A stretch of DNA of 56,438 bases from a virus. Shown piece after piece: positions 7,981 through 48,355 of the stretch; within the stretch, counting starts at the first letter, position 1; each line of letters starts with the position of its first letter. Under the pieces are notes generated by a model, which worked only from the letters and a program-made list of their open reading frames with translations, did not search any database and was not told where the DNA came from. The translations under genes and the position numbers were made by a program. The DNA lies in IMG/VR virus record IMGVR_UViG_3300046170_000155, positions 1 through 56,438 of that record. One strand, given 5' to 3'.

Positions 7981-7986
7981 TAGAAT
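7981..7986 (+). promoter_or_regulatory. -10 box after the capsid terminator
   Basis: TAGAAT, nine bases before ATG 7996, directly behind the terminator. It probably restarts transcription for the connector genes. No ribosome site stands between box and start. Confidence 0.4.
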
Positions 7987-7995
7987 ATAAACATT

Positions 7996-8255
7996 ATGTC
8001 AGAATATACAAAACCAGAAAAAACAATTTGGAAGATAAGGATGATGGTCCTATTTGGAAGGTCCTATGGCAGAACTACCTAAATCTGGGTCTCAAAGATT
8101 GCAAAAGCAGTAAAGAAGTATCTAAAGAATGGTTAAAGAGCAAGGTTGGGGACCCTGAGAAGAGAAAAAAGTCAGCACCTATAAAAAAATCTGCTCCTAA
8201 GAAAAAGTCGAAACCAAAGCTGTTAAACCATCAGAAGAAAATAAAGGAGTCCTAA
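7996..8255 (+). CDS. Small basic protein, frameshifted
   Basis: Starts MSEYTKPEK, then the frame is lost in an A-run near 8020 and continues as LEDKDDGPIWK. A second shift may lie near 8060, where another frame reads MAELPKSGSQR. The end is Lys/Ser/Pro-rich (KKSAPIKKSAPKKKS). Small Lys-rich proteins just after the capsid gene occur in many siphoviruses; some decorate the head or bind DNA. I cannot identify a family. AAAGGAG at 8243-8249 inside its end serves the next gene. Confidence 0.45.
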
Positions 8256-8893
8256 ATGGCTCTTTGTAGCGTAGTGATGTAGAAACATTTCTGAAATTGA
8301 TTTAAATTCACATGTTGAAGCTTCAGTTACAAATACTTTATACCTTATGTTGATGCTGCTATTAAGCGGTTACTTGTCATGATGTTGAACAAGCTACATT
8401 TACTAGAAGTATTTTGAGGGAAGAACAACAAGATATTTCTAAGACACATTCCTATTGCGTCTATTACTTCTGTTCTGAAGACAGTAACACATTGGTATCC
8501 GGTAATGAAAAAGATTATGTTCATTACGATAACGGTAGATTAAGAAGAATAGTAGTTAGATGGTCTGGAATAAAACCTAAAAATATTTCAGTCACTTATG
8601 TTGGTGGATATCAATCAGCTGACATTCCAGAACAAATAAAACAAACAGCTGCAAGAGCTTCTGGTAGATTACTTTTAACTTCCTTACAAAACTCGGCTAA
8701 AGCTGACACAGGTCAAATCTCAAGTCATCTAGCAGACAATACTACACCTACTAATTTTGACATTGCCTTGTCTGAAAGAATTGGAGACTATGATATAGCA
8801 TTTGCGGATGTTGTAGTTCAAAATTTACAACCTGTTTTAACTAATGCTGACATGGCTATATTAAACCCATTTAAAAGCAGATTCTTTGTATAA
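8256..8893 (+). CDS. Head-tail connector (gp6/gp15-like adaptor), frameshifted
   Basis: The joined reading is MALCSRSDVETFLEID..., then VEASVTNTL, YVDAAIKR, DVEQATFTRSILREEQQDI and, from 8414 in one long open frame, SGNEKDYVHYDNGRLRRIVV and ISVTYVGGYQSADIPEQIKQ. Helical bundle plus the YxGGY...P..IKQ signature matches the phage connector family that binds under the portal. At least three or four one-base shifts break the first 250 bases. The start at 8256 has a strong AAAGGAG seven bases upstream. About 212 aa, normal for the family. Confidence 0.7.
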
Positions 8894-36196: not shown

Positions 36197-36601
36197 ATGG
36201 CACATTACGCATTTATAAACGAATTTAATACAGTAGTAAGAGTTATTACTGGTGTAGATGAAAATGATACTTCTACACTTCCAGAAGGCTTTGATAGCTG
36301 GGAAGCATGGTATCAAAATTACAAAGGACTTACTTGTAAAAGGACTTCTTACAACACAGTAAGAAATACACATACTAATGAAGGAACTCCTTTTAGAGGT
36401 AACTATGCAGGTAAGGGATATACTTACGATTCAGACAACGATGTATTTATACCACCTAAACCTTTTGGTAGTTGGATTCTTAATGAAAGTACTTGGTCTT
36501 GGGAATCACCATTAGATTACCCAGATGATGGTCAAGAATATATTTGGAATGAAAATGCTTATGCAGAAGATGACACTACAGGTTGGGAGATTAAAGCATA
36601 A
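36197..36601 (+). CDS. MAHYA-type virion accessory protein, copy 1
   Basis: 134 aa. Starts MAHYAFINEFNTVVRVITGV and contains KRTSYNTVRNTH, TPFRGNYAGKGYTYDSD and FIPPKPFGSWIL. This family (MAHFA..., TSYN, RxxYAGxGYTYD, PP.P..SW) is widespread in marine phages, near tail fibre genes, and its role is not established. A second copy is at 41503. It sits after the Gly-rich adhesin both times, so the pair moves as a unit. Confidence 0.72.
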   Translation: MAHYAFINEFNTVVRVITGVDENDTSTLPEGFDSWEAWYQNYKGLTCKRTSYNTVRNTHTNEGTPFRGNYAGKGYTYDSDNDVFIPPKPFGSWILNESTWSWESPLDYPDDGQEYIWNENAYAEDDTTGWEIKA

Positions 36602-36864: not shown

Positions 36865-37194
36865 ATGGCTTACGATTATAAATCTGTCAATGCTGATTTA
36901 GGAACTACTATTGATACATCTATTTATGAATGTCCATCAGCAAAAACTGCTGTTGTTCTTTTATGTCAAATAGCAAATATCGATGGTTCTAATAGTGTAA
37001 ATGTTTATGTAGATTATTACGATAGTAGTAATACTCAAGCAAAAGCACTAGCGCATGAACTTCCAGTTCCAGCAGACACATCACTAAACCCTATTGGGGG
37101 AAAGCTTGTTTTAGAAGCTGGAGACCAACTTAGAGCTTGGGCAAGTGCTGCTTCAGATGCAGAGATAGTTGTTTCAGTAGTAGAGATTAGCTAA
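36865..37194 (+). CDS. Small beta-sandwich tail protein, paralogue A
   Basis: 109 aa. Strand-rich (TAVVLLCQIANIDGSNSVNV; LVLEAGDQLRAWASAAS). It has the same layout as the proteins at 38447 and 44078: an opening strand, a core AVVxLxxxxAN, an L-x-L-x-x-G-D segment before the last strands. Such modules are common in tail or fibre gene clusters. Function probably structural; no enzyme motif. Confidence 0.6.
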   Translation: MAYDYKSVNADLGTTIDTSIYECPSAKTAVVLLCQIANIDGSNSVNVYVDYYDSSNTQAKALAHELPVPADTSLNPIGGKLVLEAGDQLRAWASAASDAEIVVSVVEIS

Positions 37195-38446: not shown

Positions 38447-38776
38447 ATGGCAGAAACATTCAAAAGTCTAACAGTTGACGCTGGTACAGCTATGGCTGAT
38501 TTAATACCTACAGTCGCTGCTGGTACGACAGTTATTGTTTTAAGCTGTAGAGCGACAAACATACACGCAACATTAGATGCCACTGTAAGTGCAGAAGTAA
38601 CAGATGGTTCTTCAAAGAATGGTTATATTGCTTTTACACTTCCAGTACCAAATACTAGTTCCGTTGAACTTGCAGGTAATTCTAAAATCGTTTTACAGAC
38701 AGGCGATAAGTTGCAAGGACTTGCAGCTGTTGCTAGTACAATAGAGTATGTAATTTCTTATCTTGAAATGACTTAA
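38447..38776 (+). CDS. Small beta-sandwich tail protein, paralogue B
   Basis: 109 aa, the same length and layout as the protein at 36865 (TTVIVLSCRATNIHATLDAT; KIVLQTGDKLQGLAAVAS). GGAG in the gap before its ATG. Pairs with the neighbouring short fibre and LamG genes, repeating the order short fibre, beta-sandwich, lectin seen at 36601-37913. Confidence 0.6.
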   Translation: MAETFKSLTVDAGTAMADLIPTVAAGTTVIVLSCRATNIHATLDATVSAEVTDGSSKNGYIAFTLPVPNTSSVELAGNSKIVLQTGDKLQGLAAVASTIEYVISYLEMT

Positions 38777-39846: not shown

Positions 39847-40692
39847 ATGGGATATAGACCAATACATGTTAACGAAACTGGTGGAGATACTACTGGTTTA
39901 AGAGAGTTTGCCAATGGTGCAGATTCTGGTGTGATAGTTCCTTCTGGAACAACACCTCAAAGAGAATCTGGTGCGACAGCAGGTACAGTAAGATACAACA
40001 CAACAATCGGAGCTTTTGAATACACAACAGGTAGCGATACTTGGGTAACTTTAGGAGAAGCTGCTGCTGACGGTTCTACAAAAGGTATAGCAACATTTGA
40101 TTCAACAGAATTTTCTGCATCATCTGGTGTTATAAGCATAGGAACACTTGATGCTTCTACCATTGCAGACGGAAGCGTAACAAACGCAGAGTTTCAATAT
40201 ATAGGAACATTAACTTCTAATGCACAAACTCAGTTAGATGCAAAAGCAACAACAGCTAATACACTTGATTCCTTCGCTGCACCAACTGCGGCTATAGATA
40301 TAAATGGTCAAGAAGTATCAGATATTAAATTAAAGAATTATTACGAGACAGATGTTGCACTAACTTCAAGCTCTGGAGTGGTAGCAATTGATTTATCAGC
40401 AGGTAATGTTGGAGCCTTGACTTTAACAGAGAATGTTACAGACATTGACTTTACAAATGTACCAACTGATGGTTCTTCATCTTTTATGTTAAAAATTACA
40501 CAAGACGCTTCTTCAGCTTATACAGTAGCTATAAATGCTATGACTGTTAATGGAGGAAGCGATGTCACAGGACTAACAGCTGGTGGAGCAGGATATACAA
40601 TGTCTGCAACACTAGGTGGAGTTGATGTTTTAACAATAATGTTCTTAGACGCAGGAACACCACTAATAAACGCACTGCAAGACTTTAGCTAA
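39847..40692 (+). CDS. Tail fibre protein with RPIHVxE start
   Basis: 281 aa. MGYRPIHVNETGGDTTGLRE, then FANGADSGVIVPSGTTPQRE. The first 70 residues are nearly the same as in the gene at 43479, which makes them a virion-attachment module with different distal parts. The rest is fibre-like (VTNAEFQYIGTLTSNAQTQL; YETDVALTSSSGVVAIDLSA) with a terminal beta domain. AGGAG upstream. Confidence 0.65.
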   Translation: MGYRPIHVNETGGDTTGLREFANGADSGVIVPSGTTPQRESGATAGTVRYNTTIGAFEYTTGSDTWVTLGEAAADGSTKGIATFDSTEFSASSGVISIGTLDASTIADGSVTNAEFQYIGTLTSNAQTQLDAKATTANTLDSFAAPTAAIDINGQEVSDIKLKNYYETDVALTSSSGVVAIDLSAGNVGALTLTENVTDIDFTNVPTDGSSSFMLKITQDASSAYTVAINAMTVNGGSDVTGLTAGGAGYTMSATLGGVDVLTIMFLDAGTPLINALQDFS

Positions 40693-40701
40693 GGAGTACT
40701 A

Positions 40702-41493
40702 ATGCCTTTAGGTTCAGCAAGATTCGGAATGCTCGGAGGAGCACCAGATATGGAAATGACACTATATATGGTTGCTGGCGGTGGCGGTGGCGGTCTCGGT
40801 ACTGGTCATTCGGGCTGGGGTTATTTTAGAGGCGCTGGCGGTGGCGGTGGCGGTTATATAACTGGTACAGCAGAATTTTTTCAACCAAACACAGACTATG
40901 CAGTTGACATAGGTGGTGGCGGTGGTGGCCAAGGCCAAGGTGGAGCTACTACTTTAGTTTATCAAGACGCAACTCTAACTTGTGTAGGTGGAGGAAAAGG
41001 CGGTAACGGTTCTGGTAATCATGCTGGAGGCGGAGGCGGTGGCGCTGGAGGTTCTGGCGGTGGTGGTGGAACAGTATTTGCTAATATTCGTCCTTATGAT
41101 AGTCACGGTTACGGTGGTGGAGCTGCACAGCAGCCATCACAAACAGTTCCAGCAGGTTTTTCATCTTTAGGTAATGCTGGTGCACAAGGTAACAGAGGTT
41201 CTGGTTTCTCAGATGGTAATCCACCTCCAGGTGGAGCAGGTAGTGCTGGTTCTGGAACATTAGCTCCTTTAGGATTTTCCGTAGGTAATGGTGGTGCAGG
41301 TAATACAGTAAACAGAGGAAATGGTGGAACAGAAGGTTCAAATACAGGTGGTGGCTCTGGAATGATTTATATTTTATTTAATGAATTACTTTCAGTAAAC
41401 ATTGGTACAGGTGTAGTAGGTACTACAGGAACTTATAGTGGACAAAATTATGTTCATATAACTGGTGGGGCAGGAGATATTAGGTTCGCCTAA
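40702..41493 (+). CDS. Glycine-rich adhesin, second copy
   Basis: 263 aa, of which about 80% is Gly-rich: LYMVAGGGGGGLGTGHSGWG, RGAGGGGGGYITG, HAGGGGGGAGGSGGGGGTVF. The entry YMVAGGGGGG and the end SGMIYILFNELLSVNIGTGV are organised like the adhesin at 34871. It lacks the fibre block found there, so it probably uses the fibre encoded just before (39847) as its base. AAGGAG stands six bases before the ATG. A likely receptor-binding tip. Confidence 0.7.
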   Translation: MPLGSARFGMLGGAPDMEMTLYMVAGGGGGGLGTGHSGWGYFRGAGGGGGGYITGTAEFFQPNTDYAVDIGGGGGGQGQGGATTLVYQDATLTCVGGGKGGNGSGNHAGGGGGGAGGSGGGGGTVFANIRPYDSHGYGGGAAQQPSQTVPAGFSSLGNAGAQGNRGSGFSDGNPPPGGAGSAGSGTLAPLGFSVGNGGAGNTVNRGNGGTEGSNTGGGSGMIYILFNELLSVNIGTGVVGTTGTYSGQNYVHITGGAGDIRFA

Positions 41494-41502
41494 TAATTAA
41501 TT

Positions 41503-41928
41503 ATGGCTCATTACGCAATTTTAGATGACGACAGCATAGTAACTCAAGTTATTGTAGGTATAGACGAAGACGATACTGACAATTTACCAGAAGAGTTTGG
41601 TAGCTGGGAAGATTTTTATAGTTCTATAAAAGATGGAAAAACTGTAAAAAGAACAAGTTACAACACTTTTGCAGGAGAGCACGAACTAGATGGTACACCT
41701 TTTAGAGGAAACTATGGAACAGTTGGTTTTATTTACTATGCAGAACAAGATATGTTTTTACCACCAAAGCCTTTTGACAGTTGGGTAGAAGATTTTGATA
41801 ACTTTTATTGGAAAGCACCTATAGACAAACCAAATGATACTGATAACTTTGGCTGGGTAGAAGACGATTATCAAGACGACAATACAACTGGTTGGTTGTT
41901 AATAGAAGAACCCGAAGACGGAGAATAA
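41503..41928 (+). CDS. MAHYA-type virion accessory protein, copy 2
   Basis: 141 aa. MAHYAILDDDSIVTQVIVGI, KRTSYNTFAGEHE, TPFRGNYGTVGFIYYAEQD and FLPPKPFDSWVEDFDNFYW align with the protein at 36197 throughout. It again follows a glycine-rich adhesin. Acidic C-terminus. Role unknown. Confidence 0.72.
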   Translation: MAHYAILDDDSIVTQVIVGIDEDDTDNLPEEFGSWEDFYSSIKDGKTVKRTSYNTFAGEHELDGTPFRGNYGTVGFIYYAEQDMFLPPKPFDSWVEDFDNFYWKAPIDKPNDTDNFGWVEDDYQDDNTTGWLLIEEPEDGE

Positions 41929-41946: not shown

Positions 41947-41975
41947 AACTAGTATTTATGTATACTACAACTAGT
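41947..41975 (+). promoter_or_regulatory. TATACT promoter flanked by AACTAGT repeats
   Basis: TATACT (41961-41966) stands 7 nt before GTG 41974. Two copies of AACTAGT (41947-41953 and 41969-41975), 22 bp apart or about two helical turns, flank it; the second overlaps the start codon. An operator-like layout over a leaderless-type promoter. Confidence 0.5.
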
Positions 41976-42684
41976 GAAAAATATTATAACATTCGGTACT
42001 TTTAGTAAAGATATTTACTACACAGAAGCAATTCATCCAATACCTATGTCAGAATACCCTATTGAGTGGTATGAAAATATAAAAGCTGAGAAACTATACT
42101 TTGATGGGCAGGATGGAAAGAATGTTAAATCATGTCCAAGCTTTATAGAAATCTATCAAGAAGGCTATGTAATACCATCACCAACAGATTACTCCATAAG
42201 CGTAACCCCTCAAGGTGAGTTCTTTTGGGAGTGTGCTAGAAGCTTTAAAGATGTTATGGAAAGAGATGATATTGAATATCACTACAACGAACAATTAGTA
42301 AGCCATCTACCTAAAGACTATGACACTAAAATGATAATAAAGATAAACCTACCATGGAAAGTGTTTACACCTAAAGGTTACTCAATCAGAATAATGAAAA
42401 TGCCTTTTACTAGTAATAAACTTTGGGAGCCTACTTATGGGGTTCTAAGAACTGATAGAAATTATCATTTAAACTTTCAAACTAATATTAAGTCAAACAC
42501 TGAAGAAGTGTTTATTTCACAAGGAGAGCCTTTAGCTTTAATTGTTCCCTATAAAAGAGAAGATTTTAAAAGTCAGATTGTTGATTTAAATGAAAAAAAT
42601 CAATATAGTACTCAATATCATAAGCATTATCTAAAAACTTACGGAACTTTTAAACCAAATTTTAGAAAAGACTACTGGGCATAA
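41974..42684 (+). CDS. DUF6065-like protein, paralogue 1
   Basis: 236 aa, start GTG 41974. Contains KSCPSFIEIYQEGYVIPSP, NLPWKVFTPKGYS and, near the end, SQGEPLALIVPYKRED. These match the pattern of DUF6065-like proteins of marine phages and bacteria: CP[SA][FI]..... EG[YF][VI]I, PW....P.GYS, and GxPL..[IV]PYKRE. No catalytic activity is known. Four related proteins surround the halogenase-like gene, which suggests a joint role. Probably a beta-rich double-stranded fold; the assignment rests on motifs. Confidence 0.6.
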   Translation: MKNIITFGTFSKDIYYTEAIHPIPMSEYPIEWYENIKAEKLYFDGQDGKNVKSCPSFIEIYQEGYVIPSPTDYSISVTPQGEFFWECARSFKDVMERDDIEYHYNEQLVSHLPKDYDTKMIIKINLPWKVFTPKGYSIRIMKMPFTSNKLWEPTYGVLRTDRNYHLNFQTNIKSNTEEVFISQGEPLALIVPYKREDFKSQIVDLNEKNQYSTQYHKHYLKTYGTFKPNFRKDYWA

Positions 42685-42685
42685 A

Positions 42686-43408
42686 ATGAAAAAAATAACT
42701 GTATATTATGCAAGTCCAGATAACTTACAAGAAACACAAGACTGGTCAATACTTTATAAAGAGCCTACAAGTCTTAACAAATACTTATCAAAAAACATCA
42801 ACAAAGAACGAAGTAATGATGTACAAAACCGTGGATTTATGTCTTGTACAGCATATAAGGGACTAACTAATAACACTTATGTTATAGAAAATCCTATAGA
42901 TTCAAGTTATACATTAGATGGAAATATGCAATCAACTTCTAAAAATTCTTTATCTGCACTATATAAAAGAGAACCACAACTCAATAATCAAATACTTTTT
43001 GAGTATAACTATCCTCTTATCTTTTTTGCTGAAGAAAGTCTAGAGATGCAGTTTACAGCTCCCTATTTCCTAAATGCACCTCATCTAAAATATGGAGCGG
43101 TAACACCAGGCCAATACAATATTGGTAAATGGTTTAGACCCATACAGACAGAAATAAATTTATGGGACAATGTTAAAGAGTTTGAGATAAAAAAAGGTGA
43201 ACCTTTGGCCTTTATAAACTTTTTAACAGACAAAAAAATAGAATTTAAGATGTTTGAGATGACTACTGATTTAGCAAAAATTATGAATGTATGTGCTACA
43301 GCTAGTACTTGGGAAGTTAATGTTCCTTTAGCAAATAGATACAAGCGTTTTCATGAAAGCAAAATGTTAAACAAAACTATAAAAAAAATAAAAGAAAATT
43401 TAGTCTAA
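42686..43408 (+). CDS. DUF6065-like protein, divergent paralogue 2
   Basis: 240 aa. Less conserved than its neighbours, but the order is the same: MKKITVYYASPDNLQETQDW, FMSCTAYKGLTNNTYVIENP in place of the CPSF-EGYV motif, MQFTAPYFLNAP, then KKGEPLAFINFLTDKK for the GEPL motif. The PYKRE end is lost. It directly follows paralogue 1. Whether it keeps the same activity is uncertain. Confidence 0.5.
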   Translation: MKKITVYYASPDNLQETQDWSILYKEPTSLNKYLSKNINKERSNDVQNRGFMSCTAYKGLTNNTYVIENPIDSSYTLDGNMQSTSKNSLSALYKREPQLNNQILFEYNYPLIFFAEESLEMQFTAPYFLNAPHLKYGAVTPGQYNIGKWFRPIQTEINLWDNVKEFEIKKGEPLAFINFLTDKKIEFKMFEMTTDLAKIMNVCATASTWEVNVPLANRYKRFHESKMLNKTIKKIKENLV

Positions 43409-43478: not shown

Positions 43479-44063
43479 ATGTCAAATAGACCAATACATG
43501 TAACAGAGAGCGGTGGAGATACCACTGGTCTTAGAGAGTTTGCCAACGGTGCTGACTCCGGTGTTATAATACCTCAAGGAACTCAAAATCAAAGAGAGTC
43601 TACACCTACTGATGGTGTTCTTAGGTTTAACACTGATACAAATTCATTAGAATATTACGGAAACTCAACATGGGTAACACTTGGAGAAGTAAGTAGTATC
43701 GATGATATAAACGATGTGACTTTAACAAGTTCACAATCTGGAGATTTCTTAAAGTACAACGGTTCAGCTTGGGTAAATGACCCAATTAATTTAGAGACTG
43801 ATACTGTAGGAAACTTTGTAGAAGATGTAGCAGCAGGAAATGGTCTTGCTAAAACTTCTTCAGCAGGTGAAGGTCAAGATGTCGACCTAGCTATAGACAT
43901 CAACGGAGCTACTGATGGTACAAGTATCACAGTAGATAGTGCAGCTGACTTAGTATTACTATATGACGCTGACGCAGGAGCTGTTAAGAAAGTTCAAACA
44001 GGACAAATTGCAACTCCAACTAAATTAAATTCCGCAACTATATTTTTTGCGGCTAACGGATAG
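43479..44063 (+). CDS. Tail fibre protein with RPIHVxE start, second copy
   Basis: 194 aa. MSNRPIHVTESGGDTTGLRE, FANGADSGVIIPQGTQNQRE, nearly the same as the gene at 39847 over the first 70 residues; then INDVTLTSSQSGDFLKYNGS, a fibre repeat shared with the giant fibre. Its distal domain is short. It heads an array of small proteins. Confidence 0.65.
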   Translation: MSNRPIHVTESGGDTTGLREFANGADSGVIIPQGTQNQRESTPTDGVLRFNTDTNSLEYYGNSTWVTLGEVSSIDDINDVTLTSSQSGDFLKYNGSAWVNDPINLETDTVGNFVEDVAAGNGLAKTSSAGEGQDVDLAIDINGATDGTSITVDSAADLVLLYDADAGAVKKVQTGQIATPTKLNSATIFFAANG

Positions 44064-44696: not shown

Positions 44697-45035
44697 ATGG
44701 GAAGATATGGCGTTGACATAGCTCCCGTAGCAGGAATAAAATCTATACAAACTGGTCATTATACAGGCAATGCAGGTGGTTCTACATCTCAAATTAATGA
44801 CGACACCACAATAGAACCAATAGATGAAACAAAATCTTTTATGGTTGTTTGTGAAAGTGGTAGTTTCCCAGTTACTAATGAAGGTGGCGGAGTTACAGAC
44901 AACAGAGTTTATCCACATCCACAAGCAGCAGCATATTTATTAGATGATAAAACAGTAAGAGTTAGATATAGAATATCTTCTTTCGGTCAATCTGAAACAC
45001 AATATGTATACTGGCAAGCAATCGAGATGATATAA
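44697..45035 (+). CDS. IKSIQ-type tail protein, array member 1
   Basis: 112 aa. MGRYGVDIAPVAGIKSIQTG opens the first of four consecutive genes with MGR...IKS.Q starts. VDP-like IDETKSFMVVCESG and the closing VYWQAIEMI fit the family: IKSIQ, [ISV]xxVDxxK[ST], TxV, VxVxEYY. Members occur as single domains or repeats in phage tail proteins and are thought structural. Confidence 0.62.
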   Translation: MGRYGVDIAPVAGIKSIQTGHYTGNAGGSTSQINDDTTIEPIDETKSFMVVCESGSFPVTNEGGGVTDNRVYPHPQAAAYLLDDKTVRVRYRISSFGQSETQYVYWQAIEMI

Positions 45036-45353
45036 ATGGGTAGAGCGTCAAACAGAAGTACTATCAAATCTATACAAAGGGTATATTATGCAAACACTAC
45101 TTCATCCTATGCTCTTGTTAACAACACAATTTCTTCTGTGGATACAGATAAATCAGTAGTTGTACACAACTCAAGTAATGGACATTATAGAGGAACTGGT
45201 GCTTGGGAAAATTATTACTACATGAATGGTTCTAGTGTTCAAAACGGAGCAAAGTTAGATAGCTCAACAAATGTTGTAGTAGCTAGATATAACCCTAACA
45301 ACCAAAATAGAAGAAATGTTTATGTAGAAGTACAAGTTGTGGAGTACTACTAA
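45036..45353 (+). CDS. IKSIQ-type tail protein, array member 2
   Basis: 105 aa. MGRASNRSTIKSIQRVYYAN, SSVDTDKSVVVHNSSNG, KLDSSTNVVVARYNPN and VEVQVVEYY. The IKSIQRxxY phrase is the clearest family signature in the array. It starts one base after the stop of member 1. Confidence 0.65.
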   Translation: MGRASNRSTIKSIQRVYYANTTSSYALVNNTISSVDTDKSVVVHNSSNGHYRGTGAWENYYYMNGSSVQNGAKLDSSTNVVVARYNPNNQNRRNVYVEVQVVEYY

Positions 45354-45619
45354 TGGGTAGAAGAATGTCAAGTCCTATAGTTAAAAGCAGACAAGTTGCC
45401 GAAGCAGTAAGTAATGCTACTGGAACTAATGTTACTATATCATCAGTTGATATGAATAAAACAGTTGTTTATACTACCGCACAAGATGGTAATAACAGAA
45501 GAGAGAGTAACTCTCCTTGTGCTAGGTTAACAACTGCAACAAATGTACTTTTCAGTGGTCACAATTATAACTCACTAGGAGCAGGAAGAATGTATGCGTA
45601 TGTCGTGGAGTATTACTAA
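45353..45619 (+). CDS. IKSIQ-type tail protein, array member 3
   Basis: 88 aa. MGRRMSSPIVKSRQVAEAVS, ISSVDMNKTVVYTTAQDG, RLTTATNVLFSGHNYN, YAYVVEYY. Shorter than its neighbours by loss of loop residues. TAATG overlap at both ends. Confidence 0.65.
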   Translation: MGRRMSSPIVKSRQVAEAVSNATGTNVTISSVDMNKTVVYTTAQDGNNRRESNSPCARLTTATNVLFSGHNYNSLGAGRMYAYVVEYY

Positions 45620-45897
45620 TGGGTAGAAGTATAAGTAACGGAAGAGGAGCTATAAGGTCAAAGCAAGTTATTGCTCAAAGTAACAATGCTTACACTAGAA
45701 ATAACACAATATCCGCTGTAGACCCAGATAGAACAGTTTTATATCAAGCTGCAACATCTACTAGTTTCCAAGGTGGACAAAGAAGAATACATGCAGCACT
45801 TACTAGTTCTACTAATGTACAAAGCTCTGGTGATGGTTATGCTCAACCAACAGGTGGAACAGCATTTAACTGGACTGAAATTATTGAATATAACTAG
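45619..45897 (+). CDS. IKSIQ-type tail protein, array member 4
   Basis: 92 aa. MGRSISNGRGAIRSKQVIAQ, ISAVDPDRTVLYQAATST, ALTSSTNVQSSGDGYA, TEIIEYN. Last gene of the fibre operon. Its end overlaps both a terminator and the end of the reverse-strand gene by 17 bases. Confidence 0.62.
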   Translation: MGRSISNGRGAIRSKQVIAQSNNAYTRNNTISAVDPDRTVLYQAATSTSFQGGQRRIHAALTSSTNVQSSGDGYAQPTGGTAFNWTEIIEYN

Positions 45898-46879
45898 ATA
45901 AACCTAGTTTTTTATACAATCTATTAAAACCTTCTTTAGAATAAAAATTACTAGGCTCTCTTATTACATGTTTATTGTTTATTAAATAATTAGTTGCTAT
46001 ATCGTTAGCTTGTTTCCAAAACTCAGAATTAAAAGGAACTCTAGACACATAGTGTAACATCAAGACCTCTAAGGCCTCTTTAATATAGTCATTGTAAAGA
46101 AAAAGTGCATGGTCTTTTTTTATAGTCTTATTCATAATGTCTTGACTTAAATCAAGTAATCTCAATGCTCCAGATAAAGAAGTAGCATCAAAAGGTTCTA
46201 TAAAGAAAGCATTAAGACCTAGGTGTAGATAATTATCTTGAAATGGGTCTTTTTTGTAGTAGCTGTTAAAGTCCATGGCATGAAAGTAATCTTGCTTAAA
46301 TACCTTAAAATAATCTTTAATCTCTTCTGTTGAAGTGATATTTTTATTGTAAACATAATACATGTAAATATAGTTATAAGTAGGTATTATTTGAACCCAC
46401 CCATGTTCTTCGGCAACTAAATGTGTATAAGTTCTCTTAGATTTATTAGGTATGCGTATCCCAATTGCAGCATTTACAGGAACTTTTATAATATTATATG
46501 AATTATCTACGACAGGTTTTTTTGTTTGTATTGTGTAATCTATATCTTTAGTTTCTTTTATGTCTAAGTTTTTATAAATATAATTGTTAAAAGACCAAGA
46601 ATCAAAGTGCATAGCTACATACGGAGCTGTAAAATTTGAGTAAAAGTCATTACAACCAAAGTTTGTTTTTCTAACACCAGTTTTTACTATGGCGTTAAAA
46701 TTGGGAAAATCTTTATATTCTATATCAATAGAATCTTTTAAGAACGGGATGAGGTCTAATGTAGATGACATAGGTAAGGTAAAGTAATCATCTTGTCTGT
46801 TCCACTTTAAAGGGTTTTCTATATACTTTAAAGCAGCTAAATGTGCAGAAATTCCGTTTCCAATAATTTCAATTTTCAT
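45881..46879 (-). CDS. Flavin-dependent tryptophan halogenase-like protein (compact)
   Basis: 332 aa from the ATG at 46879, the only gene read on the - strand. Residues 2-16 (KIEIIGNGISAHLAAL) form the FAD-binding GxGxxA strand. NAIVKTGVRK (63-71) fits the position of the catalytic lysine; VNAAIGIRIP and EEHGWVQIIP (157-166) match the segment with the halogenase WxWxIP motif; GLNAFFIEPFDATSLSGA (221-238) is the highly typical G.AA.FIEPLEATS segment. Deviations: the second Trp of WxWxIP is Gln, and the protein is about 170 residues shorter than PrnA-type enzymes. A flavin enzyme is likely; halogenation is not proven. Confidence 0.7.
   Translation of the reverse strand: MKIEIIGNGISAHLAALKYIENPLKWNRQDDYFTLPMSSTLDLIPFLKDSIDIEYKDFPNFNAIVKTGVRKTNFGCNDFYSNFTAPYVAMHFDSWSFNNYIYKNLDIKETKDIDYTIQTKKPVVDNSYNIIKVPVNAAIGIRIPNKSKRTYTHLVAEEHGWVQIIPTYNYIYMYYVYNKNITSTEEIKDYFKVFKQDYFHAMDFNSYYKKDPFQDNYLHLGLNAFFIEPFDATSLSGALRLLDLSQDIMNKTIKKDHALFLYNDYIKEALEVLMLHYVSRVPFNSEFWKQANDIATNYLINNKHVIREPSNFYSKEGFNRLYKKLGLSSYIQ
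45892..45913 (+). terminator. Terminator of the fibre operon, inside convergent gene ends
   Basis: AACTAG, loop ATAAAC, CTAGTT, then TTTT. It overlaps the stop codons of the last fibre-array gene (+) and of the halogenase-like gene (-). Short stem of six pairs, AT-rich; a similar but weaker signal exists for the - strand because the stem is symmetrical. Confidence 0.55.
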
Positions 46880-46886
46880 ATTATGT

Positions 46887-46894
46887 ATTATACT
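46887..46894. promoter_or_regulatory. Overlapping divergent -10 elements, both leaderless
   Basis: ATTATACT: on the + strand TATACT (46889-46894) lies 6 nt before ATG 46901; on the - strand TATAAT (complement of 46887-46892) lies 7 nt before the ATG at 46879. The 21-base gap between the two start codons holds both, with no ribosome site on either side. A single AT element thus seems to serve both genes. Confidence 0.6.
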
Positions 46895-46900
46895 CCTAGT

Positions 46901-47602
46901 ATGAAAAAAATAATATTTACTACAGAAAAAACTGGTTTTGCAGATATAAAGTTTACACAACCACAACCATCTAAAAACTTTATACCCTCTTGGTTTACTA
47001 ATATGCCTATGAACTTACCTTTACCAAACAATCATAACTTTGTATCAAAACTTATTCCAAACTTTAAAGGTGCTAGACATTGCCCTAGTTTTGTAGAAGT
47101 ATTTAGAGAAGGCTATGTTTTAGTAGCACCTTGTGACATACACATGTTTTTTCAAGATGGAGAGTTTTTCATGAATCCATCTAATGATGAGTTTATAGTT
47201 AGAACACACGCAAAAGAACAGTTTATGGACTATATACCAAAAGATAGTGGAATAAGAGCTACTGTAAATATTAATACGGGGTGGTTTGGAATTACTCCAA
47301 AAGGTTACGGACTTAGATATCTACCTCTAATGTATGACTTTAATAAAGAATGGTCAGCTAATTATGGTGTGGTTCATACTGATAAGCTACACGAATTATC
47401 AGTTCAGTTATTTTATACATCAGATAAAGATGAGATACTTATAAAACAAGGTGAGCCTCTTTGCTATATAATTCCTTACAAGAGAGAAACCTTTAATTGG
47501 ACAATAACTTCTATAACTGAAAAATTAAGGAAAAAAATAAGAACAGGTCACTATAAAGTAGTAAACAAATTTAAGTCTGGCTATGCTAGAAATGAATCTT
47601 AA
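46901..47602 (+). CDS. DUF6065-like protein, paralogue 3
   Basis: 233 aa, from ATG 46901 (MKKIIFTTEKTGFADIKFTQ). I reject the upstream start at 46841 because it would lie over the halogenase-like gene and its promoter. Motifs: NFIPSWFTNMPMNLPLP, HCPSFVEVFREGYVLVAP, NTGWFGITPKGYGLRYLPLM, KQGEPLCYIIPYKRET. Shares all conserved blocks with the gene at 41974. Transcribed divergently from the halogenase-like gene through a shared -10. Confidence 0.65.
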   Translation: MKKIIFTTEKTGFADIKFTQPQPSKNFIPSWFTNMPMNLPLPNNHNFVSKLIPNFKGARHCPSFVEVFREGYVLVAPCDIHMFFQDGEFFMNPSNDEFIVRTHAKEQFMDYIPKDSGIRATVNINTGWFGITPKGYGLRYLPLMYDFNKEWSANYGVVHTDKLHELSVQLFYTSDKDEILIKQGEPLCYIIPYKRETFNWTITSITEKLRKKIRTGHYKVVNKFKSGYARNES

Positions 47603-47608
47603 CAAAAC

Positions 47609-48355
47609 ATGAAGATAGAAGTAATCCCTAGATTTAAAATGTTTGAAGACCTTGTTGAAGCTTACCCTCCACAGCTTGCTAATAAATTCTTACCAGAATG
47701 GTTTAAAGAAATGAAAGTAGGTAGTGAGATAGCATCATTCTTAGAGGAATTTCATGGAGTTTTCTCAGATGAAGCGCACGGTGCTAAAAAATGTCCAGCT
47801 ATAAGAGATTTAATGACAGAAGGTTTCATCATACCTTTATGGGGAAAAATGTATATGGGACACGAATATGATGATGAAGGAAATGCTATACAAACTCATT
47901 ATGGTATGACTGCTAGTAATGCAGTACAGTATGACTTCTTTGGTAGCCACTTTGAGAAACAAGTAGGTGGAATGGATGTTGGTTTAGCCCAAATGGGTAA
48001 AGAAAAAAGAATACTTAAACTAGAAAGCCCTTATAAGATAATAGTTCCAGAAGGCTACAACCTACTATATGTAGACCCTTTTTATCACTTTAGAAAAGAA
48101 ATAAGACTATTAGAAGGACTTGTAGAAGCAGATAAGTGGGGATATATAACCTTTCCTTTTAGTTTACAAGAAAAAGATTTTGTTTTACCAGCTGGTACAC
48201 CACTTATACAAGCTATTCCTTACAAGAGAGAAGAACAAAAACTCTCATTAGATGTCCGTAAAGGTACAGATGAAGAATATGATAAGAACGACATAGAGCT
48301 TTTTAGAGCAGAAGTTGAGAGAGTCAATTATAAGACTTACCCAGATAAATTCTAG
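47609..48355 (+). CDS. DUF6065-like protein, paralogue 4
   Basis: 248 aa. MKIEVIPRFKMFEDLVEAYP, FLPEWFKEM, KKCPAIRDLMTEGFIIPLWG, ESPYKIIVPEGYNLLYVDPF, PAGTPLIQAIPYKREEQKLS. This is the closest match to the classical DUF6065 layout (CPAxxDxxTxGfIIPLW, GTPL.Q.IPYKRE). It lies six bases after paralogue 3, in the same transcript. No catalytic residues can be named. Confidence 0.68.
   Translation: MKIEVIPRFKMFEDLVEAYPPQLANKFLPEWFKEMKVGSEIASFLEEFHGVFSDEAHGAKKCPAIRDLMTEGFIIPLWGKMYMGHEYDDEGNAIQTHYGMTASNAVQYDFFGSHFEKQVGGMDVGLAQMGKEKRILKLESPYKIIVPEGYNLLYVDPFYHFRKEIRLLEGLVEADKWGYITFPFSLQEKDFVLPAGTPLIQAIPYKREEQKLSLDVRKGTDEEYDKNDIELFRAEVERVNYKTYPDKF

Follow-up and report, generated by a model that had tools for sequence, protein, structure and literature searches.

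A stripped flavin-dependent halogenase fold and its predicted dUTPase-fold neighbours in the fibre region of a viral genome

A characterised phage member of the flavin-dependent halogenases (FDHs) is VirX1 of cyanophage Syn10, a trimer that iodinates many small aromatic compounds in vitro (PMC8407142). Papers on cyanophages treat the halogenase and oxygenase genes as auxiliary or host-like, each separate from the other (PMC3037559, PMC9964418, PMC10452541), and the phage 'tryptophan halogenases' have been so listed since 2010; their substrate is assumed to be free tryptophan or host metabolites (PMC9964418, PMC10452541). VirX1 has been characterised on non-natural substrates, and the cited literature names no demonstrated native one. 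Here we describe a compact relative carried by a marine phage, in IMG/VR virus record IMGVR_UViG_3300046170_000155, whose 56,438 bases we refer to as the window. The gene lies on the reverse strand at 45881-46879 and its product, the FDH-fold protein, is encoded among genes for DUF6065-like proteins in a fibre region. Our tentative reading is that it belongs, as a minimal and divergent member, to a phage module of FDH-fold and dUTPase-fold proteins that modifies fibre or adhesin proteins, with the dUTPase-fold protein as adaptor.

Recurrence of the gene pair

IMG/VR loci were fetched independently from the halogenase side and from the DUF6065-like side and then clustered by DNA similarity; counts cover the 80 best loci per scan. 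A halogenase was present within 10 kb in 14 of the 33 DUF6065-like-seeded clusters (within 200 bp in 11), against none of 32 control fibre loci (Fisher p 2e-5), which were fetched via a further gene of that fibre region, phrog_7759, and average ∼13 kb, somewhat shorter than many of the test loci. The two families thus occur together far above the control and usually adjacent, as the sequence-only reading of the window had implied: their pairing is not chance. Seen from the other side, a partner of any of three families (see below) lies within 10 kb in 15 of 49 compact-halogenase clusters and is adjacent in 13. In seven of these clusters (L024, L028, L033, L050, L055, L067 and L069) the halogenase stands between two partner genes, so that the embedded arrangement first noticed in the window recurs elsewhere. 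A 2-oxoglutarate (2OG)-Fe(II) oxygenase was found in 17 of the 33 DUF6065-like-seeded clusters by a search that used cyanophage sequences and may miss others. We found no report of the halogenase/DUF6065-like pairing in the open-access literature.

The same pairing extends to cultured phages. All 14 isolate records with a partner of the S-RIM44 type carry a halogenase directly upstream of it; they fall into six lineages (S-RIM44, Sf-FP1/CH3, Sf-FR1, Syn9/Syn10, S-CREM1 and P-TIM40). The Syn10 halogenase beside the partner proves to be VirX1 (phmmer against 6QGM: 1271 bits over 530 residues), and the partner, CPUG_00130 (L164:11914-12702; phrog_7084, E 1.8e-71), overlaps the 3′ end of the VirX1 gene. 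Profile comparison puts the window-type proteins and the VirX1 partners in a single family (99.5 %, E 7e-23; both phrog_7084). Upstream of VirX1 are a second halogenase and two glycine-rich proteins of 'tail fiber assembly' type; downstream is a row of oxygenase-size genes, three of which were sampled and proved to be a 2OG-Fe(II) oxygenase, a JmjC-type protein and a member of a 'ferrochelatase' PHROG. S-CREM1 and S-RIM44 share this layout, with the oxygenases annotated. Tail-fibre genes stand directly upstream in Syn10 and other loci have fibre-type neighbours too, and the fibre-gene setting proposed for the window gene is right. The order of a glycine-rich gene followed by a DUF6065-like gene recurs, though no more than random open reading frames of those loci would give (p 0.18).

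In the halogenase tree, a compact branch (mostly 335-414 residues) that includes the FDH-fold protein of the window is separate from the full-length branch of VirX1. Adjacency to a DUF6065-like gene occurs in both and needs at least four changes on the tree. The window protein groups with those of loci L007 and L008 on a long stem (1.45), with L011 and L012 as sisters.

Fibre regions are known insertion hot-spots, and the adjacency could be hitch-hiking: two families without common function, gathered as unrelated cargo in the same place. That each family is also found without the other fits this explanation. It accounts poorly for spacings of 0-200 bp in most co-occurrences, for the sandwich layout of the seven compact clusters, for recurrence in both FDH branches and for the empty fibre control, and we consider it improbable.

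Among 84,980 species genomes there was no relative of the window-type DUF6065-like protein at the search sensitivity used, and compact halogenases were found in only seven contigs, mostly from marine metagenome-assembled genomes. Five of the compact-halogenase loci (L237, L239-L242) are contigs binned as marine Euryarchaeota; these are possibly viral contigs inside those bins. Compact halogenases also occur as head-to-tail pairs with no DUF6065-like partner (L041:3314-5652, L046:10001-12290, L051:8841-11161 and L052:8778-11194), in contexts that are non-fibre in at least some instances.

Folds and signature residues of the two proteins

The 45881-46879 product matches phrog_2928 'tryptophan halogenase' (E 3e-72) and Pfam PF04820 (E 7e-12, above the curated cut-off). 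An IMG/VR search with this single sequence as query returned no match; relatives were found with a small-alignment query, and 54 of them formed the alignment for an AlphaFold2 model (predicted local distance difference test, pLDDT, 92.2; predicted template modelling score, pTM, 0.90). Two proteins were modelled, this one and the DUF6065-like protein encoded at 46901, each as a single chain. The structure closest to the predicted FDH-fold model is AbeH (VIA Z 35.3, root-mean-square deviation (rmsd) 2.7, 328 of 332 residues); Xcc4156, PyrH and VirX1 (VIA Z 29.4, rmsd 2.6 over 319 residues) are among the other top matches, and all the closest are FDHs. The match is not to another flavin family lacking halogenase features, and it bears out the halogenase-like fold suspected from the sequence. 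Because the matches extend over nearly the whole chain, the 332 residues represent a complete but stripped FDH fold and no fragment.

Two of the sequence features that had led to the halogenase assignment are present as claimed. The lysine segment places Lys66 at the position of PrnA K79, and this lysine is invariant in all 55 aligned relatives; the FIEPFDATS block is there also, and its F226, E228 and P229 are invariant across the same 55. Within the block, the E346 position is Asp, the S347 position Ala and the Gly is Ser. A third feature, the FAD-binding start, holds in part: GxG is kept, while the third glycine of GxGxxG is lost (the window reads GNGISA) and the VGE flavin strap reads LPM. 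That glycine is Ala in the window and L007 and Ser in L008, and is present in all 49 other compact relatives that have a residue there. The V-G of the strap and the CSG segment are lost from the window, L007 and L008 proteins.

Three further signatures are missing. WxWxIP, which some FDHs lack (PMC8407142), reads GWVQIIP in the window, with the second W replaced by Q, and is found in none of 55 compact relatives. The tunnel motif FxxPxxSxG, reported for all active FDHs either as such or in variants with a charged residue in place of G (PMC8407142), is altered in the window (S to A, G to S) and likewise occurs in 0/55 compact relatives. FX[DE]PX[EFL] is present in 52/55 compact relatives and becomes FIEPFD in the window, L007 and L008. 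VirX1, used as positive control, has every FDH motif. Since the window protein lacks the four tested signatures, we class it as an FDH-fold member of phrog_2928 and not as a halogenase. The suggestion that the window copy is a working halogenase is not supported in that form, given the motifs missing from it and its two nearest relatives; as judged from these residues, its halogenase activity is unproven and doubtful.

The gene is nonetheless maintained under purifying selection, because its nonsynonymous distance (dN) is well below the synonymous one (dS), the synonymous distances being rough at these sizes: dN is 0.44 and dS 1.62 between the window and L007, and 0.22 and 1.43 between L007 and L008. 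The neighbouring gene 46901 is under tighter constraint (dN 0.17 versus dS 1.28). Amino-acid identity to relatives is 50-53 % for the FDH-fold protein versus 74-77 % for the products of 46901 and 47609.

The window-clade protein might be a retired halogenase: a non-catalytic assembly or scaffolding factor for the fibre that works with the dUTPase-fold paralogues. The loss of the third glycine, the VGE strap, CSG and the second W of WxWxIP, the change of E346 to D, the long stem branch and the low identity relative to the two neighbours are all what such a history would leave. The catalytic lysine and F-x-E-P, by contrast, are invariant even in the window clade, and the model shows, with high confidence, an intact fold. 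We regard retirement as unlikely, if worth keeping in view.

The sequence-only reading had four forward-strand 'DUF6065-like' genes flanking the halogenase. By profile they do form one family. The products of 41974, 46901 and 47609 cover nearly the whole phrog_7084 profile (E about 1e-69 or better); those of 41974 and 46901 are 37 % identical over 160 residues (E 1e-36), and 47609 has counterparts at the same position in L007 and L008 that are 76-77 % identical. The fourth, 42686, belongs to phrog_17480, which is remotely related to the phrog_7084-type profile (hhalign 96.6 %, E 6.1e-10). The motif G-x-P-L-x-x-x-[IV]-P-Y-K-R-E is in three of the four, as had been noted. Membership of Pfam DUF6065 itself (PF19541) does not stand: matches are below cut-off (E 0.01-0.17; best score 15.8 bits versus a curated 26.6), and 42686 gives none. 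A third partner family, whose sampled members have no PHROG match, adjoins compact halogenases in several contigs and is homologous by profile to both phrog_17480 and phrog_7084 (86.9 % and 98.2 % in two comparisons). Two related bacterial DUF6065 genes adjoin a gene that begins like a TonB-dependent receptor in L283 (L283:5072-7351 and 7986-8717), and likewise in L285, with no halogenase near. A search of the open-access literature for DUF6065 found no paper.

The AlphaFold2 model of the 46901 product (pLDDT 93.1) matches dUTPases (Foldseek E 1.1e-5; VIA Z 11.2). In a library of viral models it is matched by dUTPases and by phage proteins that are uncharacterised, with adenovirus E4 ORF1 as a weaker match. 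E4 ORF1 is derived from a dUTPase, lacks dUTPase activity and works via protein contacts. Against a profile of six dUTPases the family aligns in register through motifs 3 and 4 (63.7 %, E 6.7e-5), the motif-4-like G-x-P-L of the partner aligning with dUTPase G-[DE]-R-I. The motif-3 Asp aligns to His in 46901, Arg in 41974 and Glu in 47609, and motifs 1, 2 (RSxxxxK) and 5 (GFG[ST]xG) were not recognisable in the alignments of the window paralogues. By sequence alone the kinship is weak (PDB matches E 0.4-1.5; 3.9 % with the VirX1-partner profile only), so that it rests on the predicted fold together with the six-dUTPase comparison. On this basis the DUF6065-like neighbours, represented by the confident model of the 46901 product, have a predicted dUTPase fold without most of the dUTPase catalytic residues. 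No paper on a dUTPase fold in tails was found in the open-access literature. Phage record MG065691.1 (Campylobacter phage A11a) matches the dut protein of E. coli K-12 at 100 % identity over a stretch at 127132-127587, which suggests foreign sequence within that record.

A dUTPase fold beside a flavin enzyme and 2OG oxygenases raises the possibility that the module makes a hypermodified pyrimidine, as nucleotide or DNA base. The VirX1-partner subfamily does retain an Asp aligned with the motif-3 Asp (GILDP). We think this explanation very improbable given the unrecognisable motifs 1, 2 and 5, the R, H or E in place of the motif-3 Asp in the window paralogues, and the placement of the genes with fibres and not with DNA metabolism.

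A putative fibre-modifying module

The module that we tentatively propose would pair an FDH-fold protein with at least one dUTPase-fold protein that is not a dUTPase (phrog_7084, phrog_17480 or the third family), joined in larger phages, including that of VirX1, by 2OG-Fe(II) oxygenases. Encoded in the tail-fibre cassette, it would act on fibre or adhesin proteins before they are assembled, modifying their aromatic side chains, with the dUTPase-fold protein docking the modifying protein onto the (trimeric) fibre substrate. The window copy might halogenate, with flavin bound in an altered way, might catalyse a different flavin-linked oxidation, or might have no chemistry at all; the complex, its fibre substrate and its chemistry are all inferred. 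In the sequence-only reading the DUF6065-like proteins would process, present or receive the halogenase product; the dUTPase fold, lacking most of its catalytic residues, is what the present analysis adds to that idea. Both dUTPases and phage fibres are trimers. As VirX1 is a trimer too, a three-fold complex on a fibre protein would be an economical arrangement.

Several observations weigh against this proposal. The signature motifs lost from the window clade count against ordinary halogenase catalysis. No halogenase accompanies the DUF6065-like gene, itself beside fibres, in 19 of the 33 clusters seeded with it, and compact halogenases without a partner occur in other contexts too, which means that the FDH fold has no exclusive link to fibres. 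In bacterial DUF6065 loci neither a halogenase nor a 2OG oxygenase was found within 8 kb (0/20), and neither PF13759 nor PF13640 detected a 2OG-Fe(II) oxygenase in the window. Proximity of glycine-rich adhesin genes to DUF6065-like genes (10 of 37 loci, versus a random-ORF mean of 7.7; p 0.18) was dropped as evidence of specificity, because random open reading frames (ORFs) of the same loci match it. Among the few open-access matches on fibre modification linked to halogenases we found no paper.

The view taken in cyanophage papers suggests a different substrate: a free small molecule such as tryptophan, an indole or a host metabolite, with the FDH-fold protein as auxiliary metabolic enzyme, the dUTPase-fold protein binding or processing the same compound, and the fibre region serving merely as a permissive insertion site. 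The in vitro iodinations by VirX1 (PMC8407142), the assumption made in the cyanophage papers (PMC9964418, PMC10452541) and the compact halogenases sited away from fibres are in its favour. However, no other biosynthetic genes are recognised in the window cassette, the recurrent dUTPase-fold partner sits among fibre genes whether a halogenase is there or not, and the cited literature gives VirX1 no native small substrate. We judge it rather unlikely for the module considered here.

The fibre-modifying module could be extended to a general statement: that marine phages halogenate or oxidise their own tail-fibre tips by means of a dedicated complex, in which an FDH of VirX1 type or compact build is guided by a trimeric dUTPase-fold adaptor that is catalytically retired, in many cases together with 2OG-Fe(II) oxygenases. 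We advance this as speculation that is unlikely in its full breadth. If true, VirX1 has its native role in modifying tail-fibre tips, and the smallest and most derived version of the complex is that of the window phage. A conserved, often overlapping partner of recognisable fold in a constant genomic place poses a direct question in any case: do the two proteins bind, and is the fibre modified? If active, an FDH fold of 332 residues, against roughly 500 in characterised members, would be useful, and as a retired enzyme it would be informative.

The locus and its comparison with known systems

The features of the locus are listed in Table 1. The gene for the FDH-fold protein was described as the only one on the reverse strand; this is consistent with the ORF list, since all other reverse-strand ORFs of at least 150 residues overlap larger forward ORFs. 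Its start codon and that of 46901 are divergent and 21 bases apart (a TTG at 46966 is a possible alternative start), and at its 3′ end it shares 17 bases with the convergent gene 45619. A promoter scan for it gave no signal above shuffles. Genes 46901 and 47609 directly adjoin it on one side; 41974 and 42686 lie on the other, ∼2.5 kb off, with seven small fibre-type genes between. The four last of these are probably fibre or receptor-binding parts. Their proteins have an IKS- or SKQ-type segment near the start, and the row of four is kept beside the nearest relatives of the FDH-fold gene. Their order and convergence are repeated in L007, L008 and L010 and, more diverged, in L011 and L012; in all five the arrangement of the window is kept, with DUF6065-like genes divergent and the small fibre-type genes convergent. 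The fibre region also has pairs of similar genes (36197-36601 and 41503-41928; 36865-37194 and 38447-38776; 39847-40692 and 43479-44063), a pattern suggestive of the duplication of a fibre cassette.

Table 1. Coordinates of the features discussed (window positions unless a locus is named)
Feature	Position	Strand	Remarks
FDH-fold gene	45881..46879	-	ATG at 46879, stop at 45881; 332 residues
Catalytic-lysine segment K-T-G-V-R, residues 66-70	46670..46684	-	counted from ATG at 46879
FIEPFDATS block, residues 226-234	46178..46204	-	aligns with FxEPLESTG of canonical FDHs
DUF6065-like protein	46901..47602	+	phrog_7084, E 8e-76; divergent from FDH-fold gene
DUF6065-like paralogue	47609..48355	+	phrog_7084, E 1.5e-69
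DUF6065-like paralogue, GTG start	41974..42684	+	phrog_7084, E 1.6e-73
Remote paralogue without IPYKRE motif	42686..43408	+	phrog_17480, E 4e-92
Glycine-rich fibre/adhesin-type protein	40702..41493	+	39 % Gly (composition); precedes 41503 and 41974
Four small proteins in a row (44697, 45036, 45353, 45619)	44697..45897	+	MGR starts; convergent with FDH-fold gene
Third partner family, member	L040:6497-7183		flanks compact halogenase
Third partner family, member	L060:2891-3574		flanks compact halogenase
Third partner family, member	L082:11121-11792		flanks compact halogenase
Third partner family, member	L011:2779-3465	-	flanks compact halogenase

Proteobacterial DUF6065 proteins (PF19541) are profile-related to those of the window (E down to 2e-10) and carry comparable blocks, G-[LV]-[IV]-x-x-D and K-x-G-E-P; in their 20 loci neither a halogenase nor a 2OG oxygenase was detected within the 8 kb searched. 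With dUTPases (E. coli Dut, phage dUTPases) the partners have a fold in common, but at 233-248 residues, with extra N- and C-terminal parts, they are longer than the about 150 of dUTPases. The PF04820 enzymes PrnA, PyrH and AbeH share with the FDH-fold protein the fold over nearly the whole chain and the lysine at the K79 position, and its Asp in place of E346 has a parallel in the E346D mutant of PrnA (2JKC); the window protein is ∼160 residues shorter and has lost signatures.

The nearest annotated relatives, at 24-28 % identity, are the compact halogenases of S-ShM2/S-RIM14, S-RIM4 and S-SSM7 (359-387 residues), which have kept the lysine as the window protein has. Unlike it, they keep GxGxxG, and the stretches fetched for them show no DUF6065-like gene as neighbour; those of S-SSM7 and S-ShM2 are on branches distant from it. 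Another close counterpart is VirX1 (Syn10, PDB 6QGM, CPUG_00131), with which the window has in common the FDH fold, the adjacent phrog_7084 partner and the fibre-region setting. VirX1 has 530 residues and intact GxGxxG, WVWNIP and FIEPLESTG, whereas the window protein has 332 and none of these; and, unlike the VirX1 locus, the window has its FDH-fold gene divergent from the partner and no cluster of 2OG oxygenases.

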